Assembly: GCA_019894765.1 (NCBI GenBank)
Contig: JAGXNT010000095.1
Location: forward strand, 62,001 to 126,000
Source of the DNA: Candidatus Heimdallarchaeota archaeon
GTDB lineage: Archaea > Asgardarchaeota > Heimdallarchaeia > JABLTI01
Length of the DNA: 64,000 nucleotides
Direction of reading: 5' to 3'
Shown: positions 10,656 through 59,864 of the stretch, one piece after another
How the letters are laid out: every line of letters starts with the position of its first letter
Numbering within the stretch: position 1 is the first letter of the stretch
Program-made: the position numbers and the translations under genes
Notes under the pieces: model-generated
What the model was told of the DNA's origin: nothing
The model's database searches: none
Seen by the model: the letters and a program-made list of their open reading frames with translations, nothing else

Positions 10656-13031
10656 GTGACATCAGCAGAAGAGATTATACAACATCCTTATTTGCGTAAA
10701 GGTATAGAAGCCCGACTTTTTCAACAGACGATTCTTAACACATGCATAACTAAGAACACGCTTGTAGTACTTCCCACTGGAACCGGGAAGACTATTATTT
10801 CAATACTGCACATTGCCTATCTTCTTCAAAAACAATATTTCATAGGTGAAGGAGAATACATTTTGATCATGGCACCTACAAAACCTCTCATTAATCAACA
10901 TGTTAAATCCTTTAGGTCTTTCCTCAAAATTCCTGCCGAAAAAATAATCGAACTTTCAGGTGCAATTGAACCTCAAAAAAGAAAACTTTTGATTCAAAAC
11001 GCAACCGTTATTATCGCAACTCCACAAACTGTGAGAAATGATATAATTCATGGACATCTTGATCCTGCTCAATGTAAATTGGTTTATTTTGATGAGGCTC
11101 ATCGCGCGAGAGGTGAATATGATTATGTTCATATTGCAGACATTATTCATGACAAGAATCCAGAAACTAGGATAATTGCACTTACAGCTTCACCTGGAAC
11201 AAACAAAGAAGATATCATTGAAATCTGTCGGAATTTATTCATTGAGGCGATTGAAAGCCGTCCAAAATATGACCCTGAAGTAAGAAACTACATTCATGAT
11301 GTTGAAATGGAACGTATAGAAGTTCCACTTCCCTTGGAGTTTGAGGAGATACTTTTCATAATAAATAAACTTGGAGAAAGAGAGGTTAGTTTCTTACGAA
11401 CGAAAGGATTAACTGAGAAAAAATTCCAATACTTATACAAAGGTGAGTTACTAGGAATCAAAAAAGAGCTTTCAAAGAATTTTCGAGCTAATTATCTCGA
11501 GATGATGGCTTGTAATCGTCTAGTTTATATTCAGATTTTACGGGACACCCTCGAGAGCCAAGGTGTTCCAAGTGCACTTACTTTAATCAATAATTGGCGC
11601 GAAAAAAATAGTAAGAGTATCAAAGGGTTATTTAGCGTTTCAGAATTCAGTGAGATGGTTGAGAAAATAGAACTCTTAAAAGAGCAAGGAGTTATTCATC
11701 CTAAATTGTTCTATTTACTGGAGATTCTTGATACTGTCGATTTAATCAATTCAAGAGTTCTCATTTTCTGTAATTTACGGGGGACTTGTTATGCAATCAG
11801 TAAAGCATTAGATGAACGAGGAATTAAGGCAAAACCTTTTGTGGGTCAAGGTCGAGGACAAACAGGTGGGCTAAGTCAGAAGAAACAAATCGCCTTGCTT
11901 AGTTCTTTTAGACGAGATGAGTTTCCAATTTTAGTCTCAACAAGTGTATTAGAAGAAGGATTGGATGTTGAAGAATGCAATTTAGTTATTTTTTTTGATG
12001 GAACTGCTAGTGCAATCCGAAAAATCCAAAGATCAGGTCGAACTGGGAGAAAGAAGAAAGGAAGAGTCATTATTTTAACAACCCACCACACAGCTGATAC
12101 AGCAGTTCATTTTGTCTCAAGTTCTCGAGAGAGAAACATGAATAGATTATTACAAGATATTGGCTGGTTAAAGGAAGAACTTGGTAAAGAACCTGTTGCT
12201 GATTCCAGAGCTTTTGCACCAATTATTGATGAAGAAATTACAGAAACTGACGTTCCAACAGAAAGCAATCATCCTGTAGAAGAGGAAACTGCAGAAATGC
12301 CTGAAAAATTAGCTTCTTTCAAACTTGCTCTTGATGACGTGAAGAAATGGGAAGAACAAGAAAACGAAAAAGAAGAAAGTAAAAGTAAATCTGAAGACAG
12401 TGTTAGAATTATTGTGGATAGTCGAGAAAAGAATAGCAAGATTTTGTTTTACTTGAAAAAAGAAGGTATTGACCTTGGGTTTAAGCAACTTGATTGTGGT
12501 GATTATATTTTAAGTGATCGAGTTGCGTTAGAATACAAGAAAGGTGAGGATCTTCTCTCATCAATTATAGATGGTAGATTGTTCGAGCAACTTGGATCCC
12601 TAACTAACGCTTATCAAATCCCAATTCTACTCATTGAAGGGTTCCCTTCTGGAGGTATTCATCCTGAGGCAATTGCTGGTGCTCTCTCTTCCTTCGTAAT
12701 CGATTTTGGTGTATCGATTATTCAAACACAAAACTCAGAAGAATCTGCAGCTATTATTAAGAGGATTGCTATCAGAGAACAAAAAACCAAGAAAAGAAAA
12801 CCGTTAATTAGAAAATCCATGAAAATGGGCAATCCAAATGAAAACGCTATACAAGTTATTAGTTCTTATCCAGGAATTAATAGAACATTAGCAACTCGTC
12901 TACTTGAAGATCTAGGAAGCATACGCAAAATAGCAAATGCAACACCAGATGATTTGAAAAAAATAGAGGGACTAGGTAAAAAGAAAAGTCAAAAATTCGT
13001 AGATCTTTCAAATAAAGAATATGAAGAATAA
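10656..13031 (+). CDS. hef: Hef: SF2 helicase fused to ERCC4/XPF-type nuclease and HhH
   Basis: The 791-residue protein has the archaeal Hef architecture, related to FANCM and XPF. The helicase part shows PTGTGKT (40-46), DEAH (146-149), TASPG, and motif VI QRSGRTGRKKKG. An acidic linker (about 515-580) leads to an ERCC4 nuclease domain starting IIVDSREKN and then tandem helix-hairpin-helix motifs (PGINRTLATRLLEDLGS). Hef processes stalled replication forks. The nuclease motif reads EYKKGED (626-632), keeping Glu, Lys and Asp of ERKxxxD but with Tyr in place of Arg. The GTG at 10656 follows GAGAGGA. Confidence 0.95.
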   Translation: MTSAEEIIQHPYLRKGIEARLFQQTILNTCITKNTLVVLPTGTGKTIISILHIAYLLQKQYFIGEGEYILIMAPTKPLINQHVKSFRSFLKIPAEKIIELSGAIEPQKRKLLIQNATVIIATPQTVRNDIIHGHLDPAQCKLVYFDEAHRARGEYDYVHIADIIHDKNPETRIIALTASPGTNKEDIIEICRNLFIEAIESRPKYDPEVRNYIHDVEMERIEVPLPLEFEEILFIINKLGEREVSFLRTKGLTEKKFQYLYKGELLGIKKELSKNFRANYLEMMACNRLVYIQILRDTLESQGVPSALTLINNWREKNSKSIKGLFSVSEFSEMVEKIELLKEQGVIHPKLFYLLEILDTVDLINSRVLIFCNLRGTCYAISKALDERGIKAKPFVGQGRGQTGGLSQKKQIALLSSFRRDEFPILVSTSVLEEGLDVEECNLVIFFDGTASAIRKIQRSGRTGRKKKGRVIILTTHHTADTAVHFVSSSRERNMNRLLQDIGWLKEELGKEPVADSRAFAPIIDEEITETDVPTESNHPVEEETAEMPEKLASFKLALDDVKKWEEQENEKEESKSKSEDSVRIIVDSREKNSKILFYLKKEGIDLGFKQLDCGDYILSDRVALEYKKGEDLLSSIIDGRLFEQLGSLTNAYQIPILLIEGFPSGGIHPEAIAGALSSFVIDFGVSIIQTQNSEESAAIIKRIAIREQKTKKRKPLIRKSMKMGNPNENAIQVISSYPGINRTLATRLLEDLGSIRKIANATPDDLKKIEGLGKKKSQKFVDLSNKEYEE

Positions 13032-27793: not shown

Positions 27794-29287
27794 TCAATCT
27801 ACAAAAGAGATTTCAAATTCACAGAATTTATCTCCTAAACCATGACATTTGGTTTCTGTGACAATACAATCTTTACTTGTTAAAATCTGAATTCGACCTG
27901 CTATATATCCCGCCATGAAATCACAAAAAGTAGTCTCCGAATTTTTTGCACCCGAGGACATTGCGCATTCATAAATGCGTATTTTTAATTTTCCATCTTC
28001 TTCGATTATCTTAACATCTGATCGTTCTTTCGCAGCTTGAATCATACCGAAATGAAAGAATTTATTCAAAACAAATAATGATTGATCAAGTGTTAGAGGC
28101 CAGGAATAATTCTCATCTTCTAAATAACGTTGCAAAATATCTCTTCCAGGACCAAAAATTCCTAGTTGTCTGCCTGCAGCATAAAGGAGAGCACCTGAGA
28201 AAGGATCAGCCATTCTTAGGTTTACAATTGCTTGTTGCAGTTTTGTGAAATGAACTTCATTTCCAATATTCCCTCGCTGAAAGACATCCTTTGGACTAAT
28301 GAAGGATTCATGCAATCTTGTTGAGATGTCATGGAGAATTCCTTGGAAATGCTGACTACGATCTTCTACTATATACTCATCTTGGTATTCTTCTTGAGTT
28401 CTAGTGATCTTATCATCGGAAACCATAATCTCGAATTCGCAATAAGTGTGCCCAGTACCAATACATTTGCTTTCATGTACTACAGCGTGTTTTCCGGTTA
28501 GTGCTTCTGTAATACCGGCCATTTCTCCTGCACTGAAATGACACAAAGGTTCCCCAACAAAAGGAGCACCACATGCGCTTGCTAATCCGTTTATGCGGAG
28601 AACTGCCTTATCATCTTTTAATTCCACTACTTCTGCGGATTCAGCAAGTTTCATGGGAATATTGATTGTTTCGTTATCTGAGAAGTACTTGACTAAACCT
28701 GCCATTACTTCTTCAAATCGTTCTTTCGCACGAAACTCAGTGCCTATACTTGGATTTAATGTTATCATCAAATAGGTCCCGACACCATACAATCCAACAT
28801 CACGCCCAGCTTGATACAACAAGTGTGGCACTAATTTATCCAAGGCCACGAGTGAGACCATCATTTGCTGCATCACACCGACGTGTAAATAATCTCCAAT
28901 ATTTGGTCGAATGAATTCCTCATTCATAATTGAATCAAAACTATTCTTACTTATGGTCAACAAAGTTTCTTTTCTTGCATCAAAGGATTCCTCTCGTTCC
29001 ATTATTGACCCAGTAACTCTTTGCCATAACAGATCTTGAATGTCACTTTCTGTAACTAACCCTTGGAGAACGATTTCGTCATCAATTATTACTGTAGGTA
29101 AACTTCTTACATTATATTTTTCAGCTACTTTAGGATATTCAACAACATCTATTGTGCTAATATGACACAGGTCAGAATAATAGGTACCTACGTGTTTGTG
29201 TACAATTCTCTCAACGTCAGGGCATGCATAACAGTCAGGAGAAGTGAATACAAGCATTCGTATTGGAACATTAATATTATCTACCAT
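27794..29287 (-). CDS. thioredoxin-fold domain fused to two V4R domains
   Basis: The 497-residue protein starts with a thioredoxin-like domain carrying CYAC (residues 19-22) and the cis-proline SLPT (62-65). Two V4R (vinyl-4-reductase) domains follow, about 115-295 and 315-497. Each ends in the same cysteine pattern, ESKCIGTGHTYCEFEI and ETKCHGLGDKFCEFEI, with an earlier cysteine (SACGAPF, YECAMSS). V4R domains bind small hydrophobic ligands or metals and are often regulatory. The fusion suggests redox sensing or disulfide transfer to the V4R part. The next gene on this strand is a peroxiredoxin 24 bases away, which supports a peroxide-related role by inference. Confidence 0.85.
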   Translation of the reverse strand: MVDNINVPIRMLVFTSPDCYACPDVERIVHKHVGTYYSDLCHISTIDVVEYPKVAEKYNVRSLPTVIIDDEIVLQGLVTESDIQDLLWQRVTGSIMEREESFDARKETLLTISKNSFDSIMNEEFIRPNIGDYLHVGVMQQMMVSLVALDKLVPHLLYQAGRDVGLYGVGTYLMITLNPSIGTEFRAKERFEEVMAGLVKYFSDNETINIPMKLAESAEVVELKDDKAVLRINGLASACGAPFVGEPLCHFSAGEMAGITEALTGKHAVVHESKCIGTGHTYCEFEIMVSDDKITRTQEEYQDEYIVEDRSQHFQGILHDISTRLHESFISPKDVFQRGNIGNEVHFTKLQQAIVNLRMADPFSGALLYAAGRQLGIFGPGRDILQRYLEDENYSWPLTLDQSLFVLNKFFHFGMIQAAKERSDVKIIEEDGKLKIRIYECAMSSGAKNSETTFCDFMAGYIAGRIQILTSKDCIVTETKCHGLGDKFCEFEISFVD

Positions 29288-52459: not shown

Positions 52460-53068
52460 TTATTTCTTCTTTGAAACTAAAGGATTGCTATCTCGACCTT
52501 CACCATGAATTTCAACGAGACCTGCACGTTCAAGTTCTTCGAGCCATTTCTTTGCTTGAGCAGGAGAAACTCCAGCTTTCATAGAAACTTGATTTAAGCG
52601 CATTTCACCGAATTCTGTTAAATCTTTTAGGATTACAAATCGAGGTTCATTCTCTGCAATCTTTTGGAAAGCACGCATTTCTTCCTCTAATTTCTTGTAT
52701 TCTTTCTGCAAATCTTCAATTTTCTTTTTAGCGATGCTTAAATCCTCAACAGATCCTTCAAGTCTTGTAATTTCAAGTTCTCTTTGGGATAGTCGATGTT
52801 CAAGATCTTTTAATGATTCTTTGCTTTTAGAATCATTGACTCTTAATTCTTTAAGCTCCTCTTCATATGTTTTAATTTTCTCATCGCGATTGGCTACATC
52901 AGTTTCCAAATTAGTAATCTTATCGTTTAACGAGTCCATATCAGCTAGATTTTTCTTAGCAGTTGCTAATTCATTCTCTAAATTAGCGATTTTTTGTACT
53001 GGATCAATATTTGGTTCTGGTTCTTCCATTTCTACATCTGGTGTTTTTGGTGGTTCATCTTCGGACAT
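52460..53068 (-). CDS. coiled-coil protein with C-terminal winged helix
   Basis: The 202-residue protein has an acidic Pro/Glu start (PPKTPDVEMEEPEP), a coiled coil from about 22 to 135 with clear heptads (IANLENELATAKKNLADMDS), and a C-terminal winged helix (FGEMRLNQVSMKAGVSPAQAK, then WLEELERAGLVEIHGEG). A helix-turn-helix on a long coiled coil suggests a DNA-binding or scaffold protein. ESCRT-II subunits also end in winged helices, but no specific ESCRT match is seen. The ATG at 53068 follows GAGGT. Confidence 0.7.
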   Translation of the reverse strand: MSEDEPPKTPDVEMEEPEPNIDPVQKIANLENELATAKKNLADMDSLNDKITNLETDVANRDEKIKTYEEELKELRVNDSKSKESLKDLEHRLSQRELEITRLEGSVEDLSIAKKKIEDLQKEYKKLEEEMRAFQKIAENEPRFVILKDLTEFGEMRLNQVSMKAGVSPAQAKKWLEELERAGLVEIHGEGRDSNPLVSKKK

Positions 53069-53259: not shown

Positions 53260-53724
53260 TTAGCCAGAGAATGAGCTAATGACATTATCCACTACGTAAT
53301 CAATCATATCTAGGTTTGCTGAGTCGTGTGTGAGAATATTTCCTAATCCAATTGTTAGTGTGTCACCTAGCTCCTCCAATAAGTCATAAATAGCAGATTT
53401 TTCAGTATATTTACTTCTAGCAATCAAAAACCAGTTATTATCAGGATTAGAATACATAACGATTATGGAAGATTGATTTTTGCTTTGGATAGTATAAACA
53501 TTATCATCATAGATAGAAGAAAACATTTGATTTAGAGCAACCATCAAACCAGCAAAAAGTACGTCTCCTTCCCATTTCTCTTGATGTCCTCTATTTGGGG
53601 ACCATAATAATTCACCTGAATCAAGGGCTAGAACAGTTGTATCTAAAATTATACTTGTATCAATATTATTTGTGTTTTCGCTCAAAGAGAGACACCATTC
53701 CTTTTGTTTTTGGTATATTTCCAT
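53260..53724 (-). CDS. roadblock/longin-like domain protein (tentative)
   Basis: The 154-residue protein is alpha/beta with the run VLALDSGELLWSPNRG, then a helix GDVLFAGLMVALNQMFSS, then strands VYTIQ, SIIVMYS and NWFLIARS, and a final helix. That order (strand-turn-strand, helix, three strands, helix) is that of roadblock/LC7 and longin modules, which sense or regulate small GTPases and are common in Asgard genomes. No GTPase gene is adjacent. Sequence likeness is weak. Confidence 0.5.
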   Translation of the reverse strand: MEIYQKQKEWCLSLSENTNNIDTSIILDTTVLALDSGELLWSPNRGHQEKWEGDVLFAGLMVALNQMFSSIYDDNVYTIQSKNQSSIIVMYSNPDNNWFLIARSKYTEKSAIYDLLEELGDTLTIGLGNILTHDSANLDMIDYVVDNVISSFSG

Positions 53725-57234: not shown

Positions 57235-57996
57235 TTGTCGCGAAATAAAATTAATGACTTGGCATTAGCCAGAGAAACACAATTAATGTTTACTTACACA
57301 GAAGGATTCAGTCCTATAGGAAGTGAACTTAATCGGTGGAAAGGTGAAATTCTTGTCAAGACACCTCAAGGAGAACGAGCAATACCAGTTGAAGTATTAG
57401 TTCCACTAAAATATCCGGAATATCCACCGAAAGTGATGGTTCTTGAGAAGAGCATTCAGCACCCAAATATTGAGAAGAATGGTAATGTATTGCTGAAAAT
57501 AACTCACGAGTGGAAACCTGATGTTCATGTTTATCAAGTAATTCATGCGTTACAGAACCTATTCAAAAAAGTTCCACCTCAGTTTTCTGATGCTGGTGGA
57601 GCAAAACCCCCAAAGCAAAAAGCAACTGTTCAATCAGTTGATACCGAAAGAACCGCAAATCAACAAAAAGTAATAGTCATAAATCAAACAATAACATCTT
57701 TGCAAGATAAAATTAAAGAAAAAGATGAAGAATTACGAAAACTACGAGCAGAATTAGTAAAGGGAACAAACGAGACAATTACGAGAGTAGAAGACATGGA
57801 TATGGTGCTACCAAAAGATAAAGTGAAAAGCGAGAAATTAATGATTCAAGCTAAAAGTGTAGCATTAGCAGATCTTCTATCCACTCTTGATGAGAAATTC
57901 AAAGATGGAGAAATCAGCCCAGTGGATTTCTCAAAACTTTACAGAAAATACACAAAAGAATTGTATTTAATTCATAAGGAATTAGAATCGAAATAA
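57235..57996 (+). CDS. vps23: ESCRT-I subunit Vps23/Tsg101-like (UEV, coiled coil, steadiness box)
   Basis: The 253-residue protein has the three-part Tsg101 design. Residues about 1-120 are an E2-like fold (GEILVKTPQGERAIPVEV, YPEYPPKVMV, SIQHPNIEKNGNVLL, HEWKPDVHVYQVI). In E2 enzymes the catalytic Cys lies just after the GNI/V stretch; here it is Leu, so this is a ubiquitin E2 variant (UEV) that binds and does not transfer ubiquitin. A coiled coil follows (about 145-185), then a steadiness box with AKSVALADLLSTLDEKFKDG near 205-225. Tsg101 recognises ubiquitinated cargo in ESCRT-I. The start is TTG at 57235 after GAGGAG (12 bases). It heads the ESCRT cluster. Confidence 0.92.
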   Translation: MSRNKINDLALARETQLMFTYTEGFSPIGSELNRWKGEILVKTPQGERAIPVEVLVPLKYPEYPPKVMVLEKSIQHPNIEKNGNVLLKITHEWKPDVHVYQVIHALQNLFKKVPPQFSDAGGAKPPKQKATVQSVDTERTANQQKVIVINQTITSLQDKIKEKDEELRKLRAELVKGTNETITRVEDMDMVLPKDKVKSEKLMIQAKSVALADLLSTLDEKFKDGEISPVDFSKLYRKYTKELYLIHKELESK

Positions 57997-58011
57997 TAAG
58001 AGGAAGTAAAA

Positions 58012-58650
58012 ATGTCATATTCGTCTAAAAACAAATCACAAGTAGAATTGGAAGCAGAATTATTTTCATGCATTGCAACCATCGATAATCTAAGTCAAGG
58101 TTTTGCAGATGGAATTTTAGATCCGGGAATGTATCGTCGACAACTAAGAGCATTAATAAGAGATGCATTTAAGGCACGTTTTCAACTACAAAAGTTAGGT
58201 TTTAATTTGGAAGGTTTTCTGGCTCGAGAGAGTATTGTGCAGAAATATCCATATGGTGCAGAAAAACTTCGATTTGCTGAAGGAGTTGCCCCAATTCCGA
58301 TTGATGAAACTGTAGAAACAATAGCTATGCCATTTGCTTCAATGAAAAATCTACCTGCGAAAAGTGCAGATTTTGTTGCAGCAGCTATAGAACTAATAGA
58401 TTTATTGAGACTTGGTTCCGTCGCTCGAGTTGAACTAATAGTTCCAAATCTTGATGATATGGAAGCAATTCTAATTGATTTCCCAGGCTACGGCAAAGAT
58501 TCCGAAGTTGTCGAAGAAATGAACAATTGGAAAGAAATGCTTGCAGCAAAACCACCTGATGAGGTCCTAGAAGAAGGGCTAATTAAACGATTAGAATTTG
58601 AAGCTGTAAGATGGTTAAATGGATTCAGACGATCATTAAGAAATCCATAA
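58012..58650 (+). CDS. vps28: ESCRT-I subunit Vps28-like
   Basis: The 212-residue helical protein aligns with eukaryotic Vps28 in both halves. The N-terminal core has AELFSCIATIDNLSQGFADG and MYRRQLRALIRDAFKARFQL. The C-terminal four-helix bundle has a FVAAAIELIDLLRLG start, VARVELIVPNLDDMEAIL, the Trp-bearing NNWKEML and the final EFEAVRWLNGFRRSL. In eukaryotes the N-part binds Vps23 and the C-part binds ESCRT-II. The ATG at 58012 has GAGGAAGT upstream. It lies 15 bases after vps23. Confidence 0.92.
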   Translation: MSYSSKNKSQVELEAELFSCIATIDNLSQGFADGILDPGMYRRQLRALIRDAFKARFQLQKLGFNLEGFLARESIVQKYPYGAEKLRFAEGVAPIPIDETVETIAMPFASMKNLPAKSADFVAAAIELIDLLRLGSVARVELIVPNLDDMEAILIDFPGYGKDSEVVEEMNNWKEMLAAKPPDEVLEEGLIKRLEFEAVRWLNGFRRSLRNP

Positions 58651-58718
58651 ACTATTTTCCTTCATTCCTTTACTTCAAAGTATTTGAAAAATCTAAGAGC
58701 TATTAAGAGGTAATGCAC

Positions 58719-59021
58719 ATGCGCGGAAATCCTGTAGCATACAGAAATTTAAACCGACATTTACGAGAAATATTAAACTATCTCGAGATAGCTTTAGATG
58801 CAGATTTCGTTTTAGAAGAATTGAATTCCGCAATTTATGAGTGTGAAAAAACATTTGGAAAAAGACATCATTGTACCATTCAACTCCGAAATCAAATGAA
58901 GGATTTATATAAAAAATACATAGAAAGAAAAGCTTTACCTTTAGAGGAAAAAGATGAGAAAAAGCTTCAAAGTAAAATTAATGAGTTATTAAAGAAGTAT
59001 TATCAAAATACTCCGAAATAG
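58719..59021 (+). CDS. small helical protein inside the ESCRT cluster, unknown
   Basis: The 100-residue product is highly charged and helical: an N-terminal part with LNRHLREILNYLEIALDADF, a middle CEKTFGKRHHCTIQLRNQM and a Lys-rich end. It has the size expected for an ESCRT-I helper such as a Vps37- or Mvb12-like piece, but no sequence match is claimed. The ATG at 58719 is preferred, about eight bases after AAGAGGT; an ATG at 58713 is too close. It sits between vps28 and vps22 on the same strand. Confidence 0.7.
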   Translation: MRGNPVAYRNLNRHLREILNYLEIALDADFVLEELNSAIYECEKTFGKRHHCTIQLRNQMKDLYKKYIERKALPLEEKDEKKLQSKINELLKKYYQNTPK

Positions 59022-59090
59022 ATAGTAAAATAATTCGAAACGTTATAATTAGAATTCGTCCTAAAAAATCCTAGTGAGGTAAGAAGAATC

Positions 59091-59816
59091 ATGGGTTTAA
59101 GAGATATAGAAAAGAAAATTAGAATAAAATCTGCATACAAAACAAAAGAAGCCGAATTAATGATAACAGATCTAGAACGTATGTTAGAAAATATACGAGA
59201 GCTTCATACTCAACTAAAGAAATTTGAGAAGAAATGGAAGAAGGATATAGAGAAAAACAAAGATTCCTATGAGAAATTAGTTGAACTTAGACAAGAATTA
59301 GGATTACCAAATGAATTAGGAATTTATGAATGGAAAGAAAGCGCAACATTTTGGGATAAAGTAGGCGGTGGAGATTTCTTCGAACGACTTGGTGTAGAAA
59401 TTTTGGAAAGAGCCAAAGAAATTCAAGAATATACAGGTGGATTAATGACACTTGGTGAAGTTGTTTTACTGGTAAACAAAGGTCGTCCTGGAAAGATTAT
59501 CCCAGCAAAAGATGTTGTAGAAGCAATTGAAAAATTAACCAACGCAAAACTCATTCCTAAACCAAAAGAATTGAAGAGTGGAGTAGTTCTGGTAGAATTT
59601 ATCCCAGCAAATCTTTCTGATGATCAAGAGGAAGTCCTTGCTCTCTCAACTAGAAAAGGATGGATTTCCATGGAAGAACTTATGCTGAAGACGCGATGGA
59701 CACAAGAGAGATGTGATCGTGTGCTTGAATCTATGAGAGATGCTGGTATTGCTAGAGTAGACGCAAGTTATGCAGAAGGCAAGAAATATTACTTCCCCGG
59801 TTTAGGTGGAAGATAA
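59091..59816 (+). CDS. vps22: ESCRT-II subunit Vps22/SNF8-like (EAP30 domain)
   Basis: The 241-residue protein matches SNF8 over its whole length. It has an N-terminal helix pair (LQ-like ELHTQLKKFEKKWKKDIEKN), then FWDKVGGGDFFERLGVEI, the EAP30 core IQEYTGGLMTLGEVVLLVNK, and two winged helices (DVVEAIEKLTNAKLIPKP; STRKGWISMEELMLKTRWTQ then RVLESMRDAGIARVD). A C-terminal KKYYFPGL mirrors the HYWLPAL end of SNF8. ESCRT-II bridges ESCRT-I and ESCRT-III. The ATG at 59091 follows GTGAGGT. The cluster ends with a hairpin terminator at 59841. Vps25 is not in the window. Confidence 0.94.
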   Translation: MGLRDIEKKIRIKSAYKTKEAELMITDLERMLENIRELHTQLKKFEKKWKKDIEKNKDSYEKLVELRQELGLPNELGIYEWKESATFWDKVGGGDFFERLGVEILERAKEIQEYTGGLMTLGEVVLLVNKGRPGKIIPAKDVVEAIEKLTNAKLIPKPKELKSGVVLVEFIPANLSDDQEEVLALSTRKGWISMEELMLKTRWTQERCDRVLESMRDAGIARVDASYAEGKKYYFPGLGGR

Positions 59817-59840: not shown

Positions 59841-59864
59841 ATTATCAGCTTGATTGCTGATAAT
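59841..59864. terminator. strong hairpin ending the ESCRT cluster
   Basis: ATTATCAGC and GCTGATAAT form a 9-bp stem around a six-base loop, 25 bases after the vps22 stop. On the plus strand TCTTATTTTTATT follows, and on the minus strand ATTTCTATTTTT follows, so it can serve the convergent 451-residue gene too. Confidence 0.75.

Follow-up and report, generated by a model that had tools for sequence, protein, structure and literature searches.

A genuine Asgard ESCRT-I/II gene cluster, of an already described kind, lies on the forward strand of the window (the whole stretch of 64,000 nucleotides that was analysed), and between its vps28 and vps22 genes stands a fourth gene that encodes a separate paralogue, similar to the C-terminal domain of Vps28 (Vps28-C) and here called the solo. 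The cluster and its logic have already been published, and the finding is thus real and mostly known; the overlooked solo gene is the part worth following. ESCRT is a membrane-cutting machinery that these archaea have in common with human cells, and its Asgard form is central to the question of how eukaryotic membrane trafficking originated. The cluster provides a further example, and in relatives of its lineage the ubiquitin-ESCRT set is nearly complete. Judging by the names of the relatives' records, this lineage is most likely Gerdarchaeales within Heimdallarchaeia. The nearest relatives of its Vps28 come from Asgard/Heimdallarchaeota MAGs (92–95% identity), and in a record named Gerdarchaeota the Vps28 is 84% identical (P0049) and the solo 68% (P0106).

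The cluster opens with a vps23/TSG101-like ESCRT-I gene at 57235–57996 (+), which has a TTG start and a product of 253 aa and was identified from the list of open reading frames and by Pfam. It is followed by a vps28-like ESCRT-I gene at 58012–58650 (+), whose 212-aa product has an N-terminal core and a C-terminal four-helix domain, by the solo at 58719–59021 (+), which encodes 100 aa from the ATG at 58719 or 102 aa from an alternative ATG at 58713 (58713–59021), and by a vps22/SNF8-like ESCRT-II gene of the EAP30 family at 59091–59816 (+), with a product of 241 aa identified by Pfam and a match to SNF8. An earlier, sequence-only reading had described three genes in one orientation with short gaps. 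All three do lie on the + strand, and the spacer between vps23 and vps28 is indeed short (15 bases), but vps28 and vps22 are 440 bases apart, and the interval contains the solo, which the count of three had overlooked. The terminator proposed 3' of the cluster was found as a 9-bp inverted repeat at 59841–59864 with T-rich tails on both strands, a probable terminator between convergent genes that can be read on either strand (fold z = -3.9); the scanned 3.2-kb region holds six terminator-like sites versus 1.5 in shuffles. Also upheld was the absence of Vps25, ESCRT-III (Snf7) and Vps4 from the window, where profiles made from relatives gave no match better than E 0.13, that match being the solo itself, hit by the Snf7 profile. 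With the three gene identities supported by the Pfam, SNF8 and Vps28 profile matches, the ESCRT-I/ESCRT-II reading of the cluster holds.

The Vps23 product had been described as a UEV domain, a coiled coil and a steadiness box. The UEV domain, at about residues 3–120, was recognised by Pfam (UQ_con, 7.6e-15; UEV, 5.5e-9; both over residues ~30–115), and the protein contains no cysteine, which confirms a UEV fold without the catalytic cysteine of E2 enzymes. The AF2 model has a single long helix (141–175), a probable coiled coil, between low-confidence linkers. The C-terminal part is modelled as a helical hairpin (helices 196–223 and 229–252, pLDDT about 90), and residues 196–252 qualify as a steadiness box on the strength of these helices, of a Pfam match to Vps23_core (9.3e-5; 22.8 bits, under the 26.8-bit cut-off) and of collinearity with HeimAB125_14070, to which residues 4–250 align at 28% identity (3e-30). 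Among the matches listed in structure searches with the Vps23 model, all cover the UEV part only. HeimAB125_14070 is said to have a steadiness box, and its UEV binds ubiquitin, as has been demonstrated for both Heimdall AB125 and Odin Vps23 homologues in the binding sections of PMC9192718. By analogy with these proteins, the window Vps23 is likely to bind ubiquitin as well.

The second product was matched by the Pfam VPS28 model over residues 15–208 (3.3e-7). Its profile matches both the core of yeast Vps28 (2f66_B, 0.0016) and a Vps28 C-terminal domain (2j9w_A, 3.3e-6), and the protein is therefore two-domain, as had been claimed. Vps22 likewise proved to be a full-length EAP30 protein, with a Pfam EAP30 match that runs over nearly its whole length (residues 1–224, 3e-24) and a match to human SNF8 (2zme_A, 6.6e-22). 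A Vps23/Vps28 complex and contacts from ESCRT-I to Vps22 have been shown for related proteins (PMC9192718, sections on binding), and by analogy an ESCRT-I/ESCRT-II link is likely in the window system. Three longer Vps28 proteins (P0076–P0078, 302–312 aa, one named Kariarchaeaceae) were considered as fusions with the solo and rejected, since their additional residues, as judged by eye in an alignment, form a charged extension at the N-terminus and not a solo.

The solo is a real gene under purifying selection, as its relatives and a low Ka/Ks indicate. A search with the window solo returned 27 proteins, its own among them; the other 26 are 63–88% identical to it, and the alignment has 31 invariant columns. 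The second methionine is the start in 26 of the 27 rows, and Ka/Ks was 0.06–0.09 in three of four pairs with relatives, the fourth pair being saturated. Sequence searches for a known family gave little: Pfam found no significant match for the window solo, direct family searches returned only chance-level names, none of 31 solos reached E 0.01 with the Pfam VPS28 model, and no Vps28 came up when the solo alignment was searched against PDB sequences. The AF2 model is a four-helix bundle (pLDDT 87), for which Foldseek ranked yeast Vps28-C first (probability 1.00, TM 0.76), and a VIA structure search placed Vps28-C at ranks 1–3 among the 50 entries listed. A profile of the solos matched Vps28 at E 5e-5, with the alignment in the C-terminal domain. 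When the profile was trained without the window's lineage, it recovered 10 of 10 solos of that lineage (8.6e-15 or better), and the best four other matches listed were Vps28 or Vps23-Vps28 proteins. Predicted fold and profile homology thus point together to a Vps28-C domain, for the window's own solo by way of other lineages.

These results bear on the idea that the solo, as a divergent Vps37, supplies the third subunit that the ESCRT-I head is missing. The protein is small and helical, and its gene lies within the ESCRT-I cluster of a group that, according to PMC9192718, is without Vps37. However, its model is a four-helix bundle with no hairpin, its best folds are those of Vps28-C, to which its profile also leads, and the Vps37 family (Mod_r) is absent from its Pfam matches at E 1. 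Vps37 identity was rejected on these grounds and is given hardly any credence here.

The solo was classed as a Vps28-C-like paralogue, and not as Vps28, because the residues invariant in Vps28-C differ. When 37 solos were compared with 49 full-length Vps28-C domains, in which W173, L194, E195, R200, W201 and F205 are invariant among others, this conservation did not extend to the solos: W201 is kept in 89% of them and L194 in 70%, and at the positions of W173, E195, R200 and F205 another residue is the most frequent. The window solo itself has a leucine at the W201 position. Peculiar to the solos are two invariant residues, E35 and Y69 (numbering of this comparison). In a quick tree of the same two sets, one branch with an SH-aLRT of 99 divides solos from full-length domains; the tree was built on 111 columns, contains some long branches, leaves the finer order unsupported and omits the solo of locus L018. 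Since this branch leaves every one of the 37 solos on the same side, the solo is no recent copy, and the sequences indicate a paralogue that parted from Vps28-C long ago. Were the solo a redundant copy of Vps28-C, or a decoy that competes with Vps28 for one partner and thereby tunes dose, it would have the same predicted fold and homology and would be encoded beside Vps28, as is the case. Such a copy is nevertheless an unlikely explanation, given the residues peculiar to the solo, the four changed positions against two mostly kept, and the deep division in the tree. The retention of the fold while invariant positions change appears easier to reconcile with a distinct subunit than with a spare duplicate.

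The gene order was compared in 49 loci, of which 48 were retrieved via the Vps28 alignment and one is the window. Bit-score limits were set for this table, because iterated Vps23 and Vps28 profiles, which have the hairpin in common, begin to pick up each other's proteins. The arrangement proved to be an ordinary one for Asgard archaea: vps22 follows vps28 on the same strand in every locus but L021 (48 of 49), and in 44 loci it lies within 470 bases of vps28. Vps23 is separate and upstream in 29 loci, and it is separate in the window lineage, whereas it is fused to Vps28 in 18, including HeimAB125; in two (L016, L031) it is lost at the contig end. The solo is present in 38 loci, 37 by profile and L018 by eye, and in the 11 loci that lack it the distance from vps28 to vps22 is -76 to 61 bases, which leaves no room for it. 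In L018 (10600–11060) the solo frame is intact in the conserved part and shows no ATG, GTG or TTG start, which is why the ORF caller skipped it. Across the phylum, 45 of 227 genomes gave a solo match; two weak ones (G169, G050) were excluded, which leaves 43 strong matches, and 42 of these directly follow vps28, 50–110 bases past the Vps28 match. The match in G050 has an E-value of 4.2e-4 and contains stops; that in G169 (C282, 29–289; E 4.9e-5) lies inside a 472-aa open frame and is possibly a fused form.

Five of the 49 loci separate the two neighbours of the solo. An opposite-strand gene stands between the solo and vps22 in L006 (3454–4797), L007 (11052–12422) and L008 (11049–12374); Pfam identified it as an RsmB/F-type methyltransferase in L007, and the other two look alike by eye. 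L019 carries an opposite-strand IS605-type transposase there (11128–12363; Pfam), and in L021 vps22 is 5 kb off on the other strand. The solo keeps with vps28 in all five, and it is therefore linked to ESCRT-I. If it were instead accessory to ESCRT-II, with Vps22 as its partner, its position directly before vps22 in most solo-bearing loci would be explained, but its loyalty to vps28 where vps22 has moved or been cut off makes that rather improbable. Loci L036, L039, L041, L043 and L044, titled Wukong- or Hermodarchaeota (L044 as 'H03M_Hermod_104'), hold vps23-vps28-solo-vps22 clusters. According to a passage in PMC10936438, Hermod-, Hod- and Wukongarchaeia "have none", which may mean unusual families only.

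The rest of the ESCRT and ubiquitin set was searched for in nine related genomes of unstated completeness (G001–G009). Snf7 was found in all nine, ubiquitin in eight, and Vps25 and Vps4_C in seven each; the frame read at four of the eight ubiquitin loci ends in GG, the other four being minus-strand matches outside this count. The cluster resembles eukaryotic TSG101, VPS28 and SNF8 in its UEV without catalytic cysteine, its helical hairpin, its two-domain Vps28 and its EAP30 protein. Unlike in eukaryotic ESCRT-I/II, Vps37 (Mod_r) was above cut-off in 0 of 227 phylum genomes, with nine weak matches below it, and the Vps36 GLUE family is rare, matched in eight of the 227 and above cut-off in four, none of the eight being among G001–G009. 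A further difference is that no eukaryote occurs among the named proteins of the solo's 76 relatives, most of which are nameless entries.

Taken together, a four-gene ESCRT-I/II operon with the solo as an ESCRT-I-associated subunit is, as a whole explanation, held with considerable confidence. By comparison with homologues, the cysteine-less UEV of Vps23 would bind ubiquitin, and the ESCRT-I head would form when the Vps23 hairpin pairs with the core of Vps28. Through its C-terminal half, Vps28 would reach to Vps22 of ESCRT-II, which may pass the signal on to Vps25, ESCRT-III and Vps4, whose genes stand at other places in related genomes. In this scheme the solo would be an old Vps28-C paralogue turned into a separate ESCRT-I-associated subunit with its own conserved residues. 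For it we infer a role and a partner at the ESCRT-I/II link, where it is probably a second docking face in a system in which neither Vps37 nor the GLUE domain of Vps36 is recognisable. More tentatively, and with less than even confidence, the solo could be an archaeal ESCRT-I subunit that lacks a eukaryotic counterpart and has a partner of its own, either bridging ESCRT-I to ESCRT-II, a contact made by Vps36 in eukaryotes, or recruiting ESCRT-III directly. If this is true, the solo would represent a lost alternative wiring of the ESCRT cascade that survives in Gerd-, Heimdall-, Hermod-, Baldr- and Wukongarchaeia.

The vps23-vps28-vps22 arrangement in Asgard genomes was already described (PMC10936438), and the clusters covered there and in PMC9192718 share the three genes, their orientation and their domains with the window. 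It is also in print that "in some Asgard genomes" Vps28-C has a gene of its own (PMC10936438, text on Fig. 3C). The solo agrees with these in that a Vps28-C-type domain is encoded besides a full vps28; it differs from that text's description in being too divergent for Pfam, and it may or may not be among the genes in Fig. 3C. The main text of the literature searched yielded no account of how old the solo is, of its constant position or of the conserved residues peculiar to it. The binding and two-hybrid work of PMC9192718 covered Vps23 and Vps28 as well as freestanding steadiness-box proteins, and its relevant sections do not mention a separate Vps28-C; the solo is a concrete, testable extra part. 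In the locus of HeimAB125 (L037), a genome from which proteins were used in that work, the solo lies between the ESCRT-I fusion gene and vps22.

Three other genes of the window, all on the minus strand, were noted. The gene at 53260–53724 encodes a 154-aa protein with no Pfam match at E 0.01. Near the cluster, the gene at 52460–53068 encodes a long coiled coil followed by a MarR-like winged helix just below the Pfam cut-off, two parts whose combination brings ESCRT to mind. The product of 27794–29287 joins a thioredoxin-like domain to two V4R stretches (Pfam V4R 4.3e-27), and V4R is related to subunits of the TRAPP trafficking complex.
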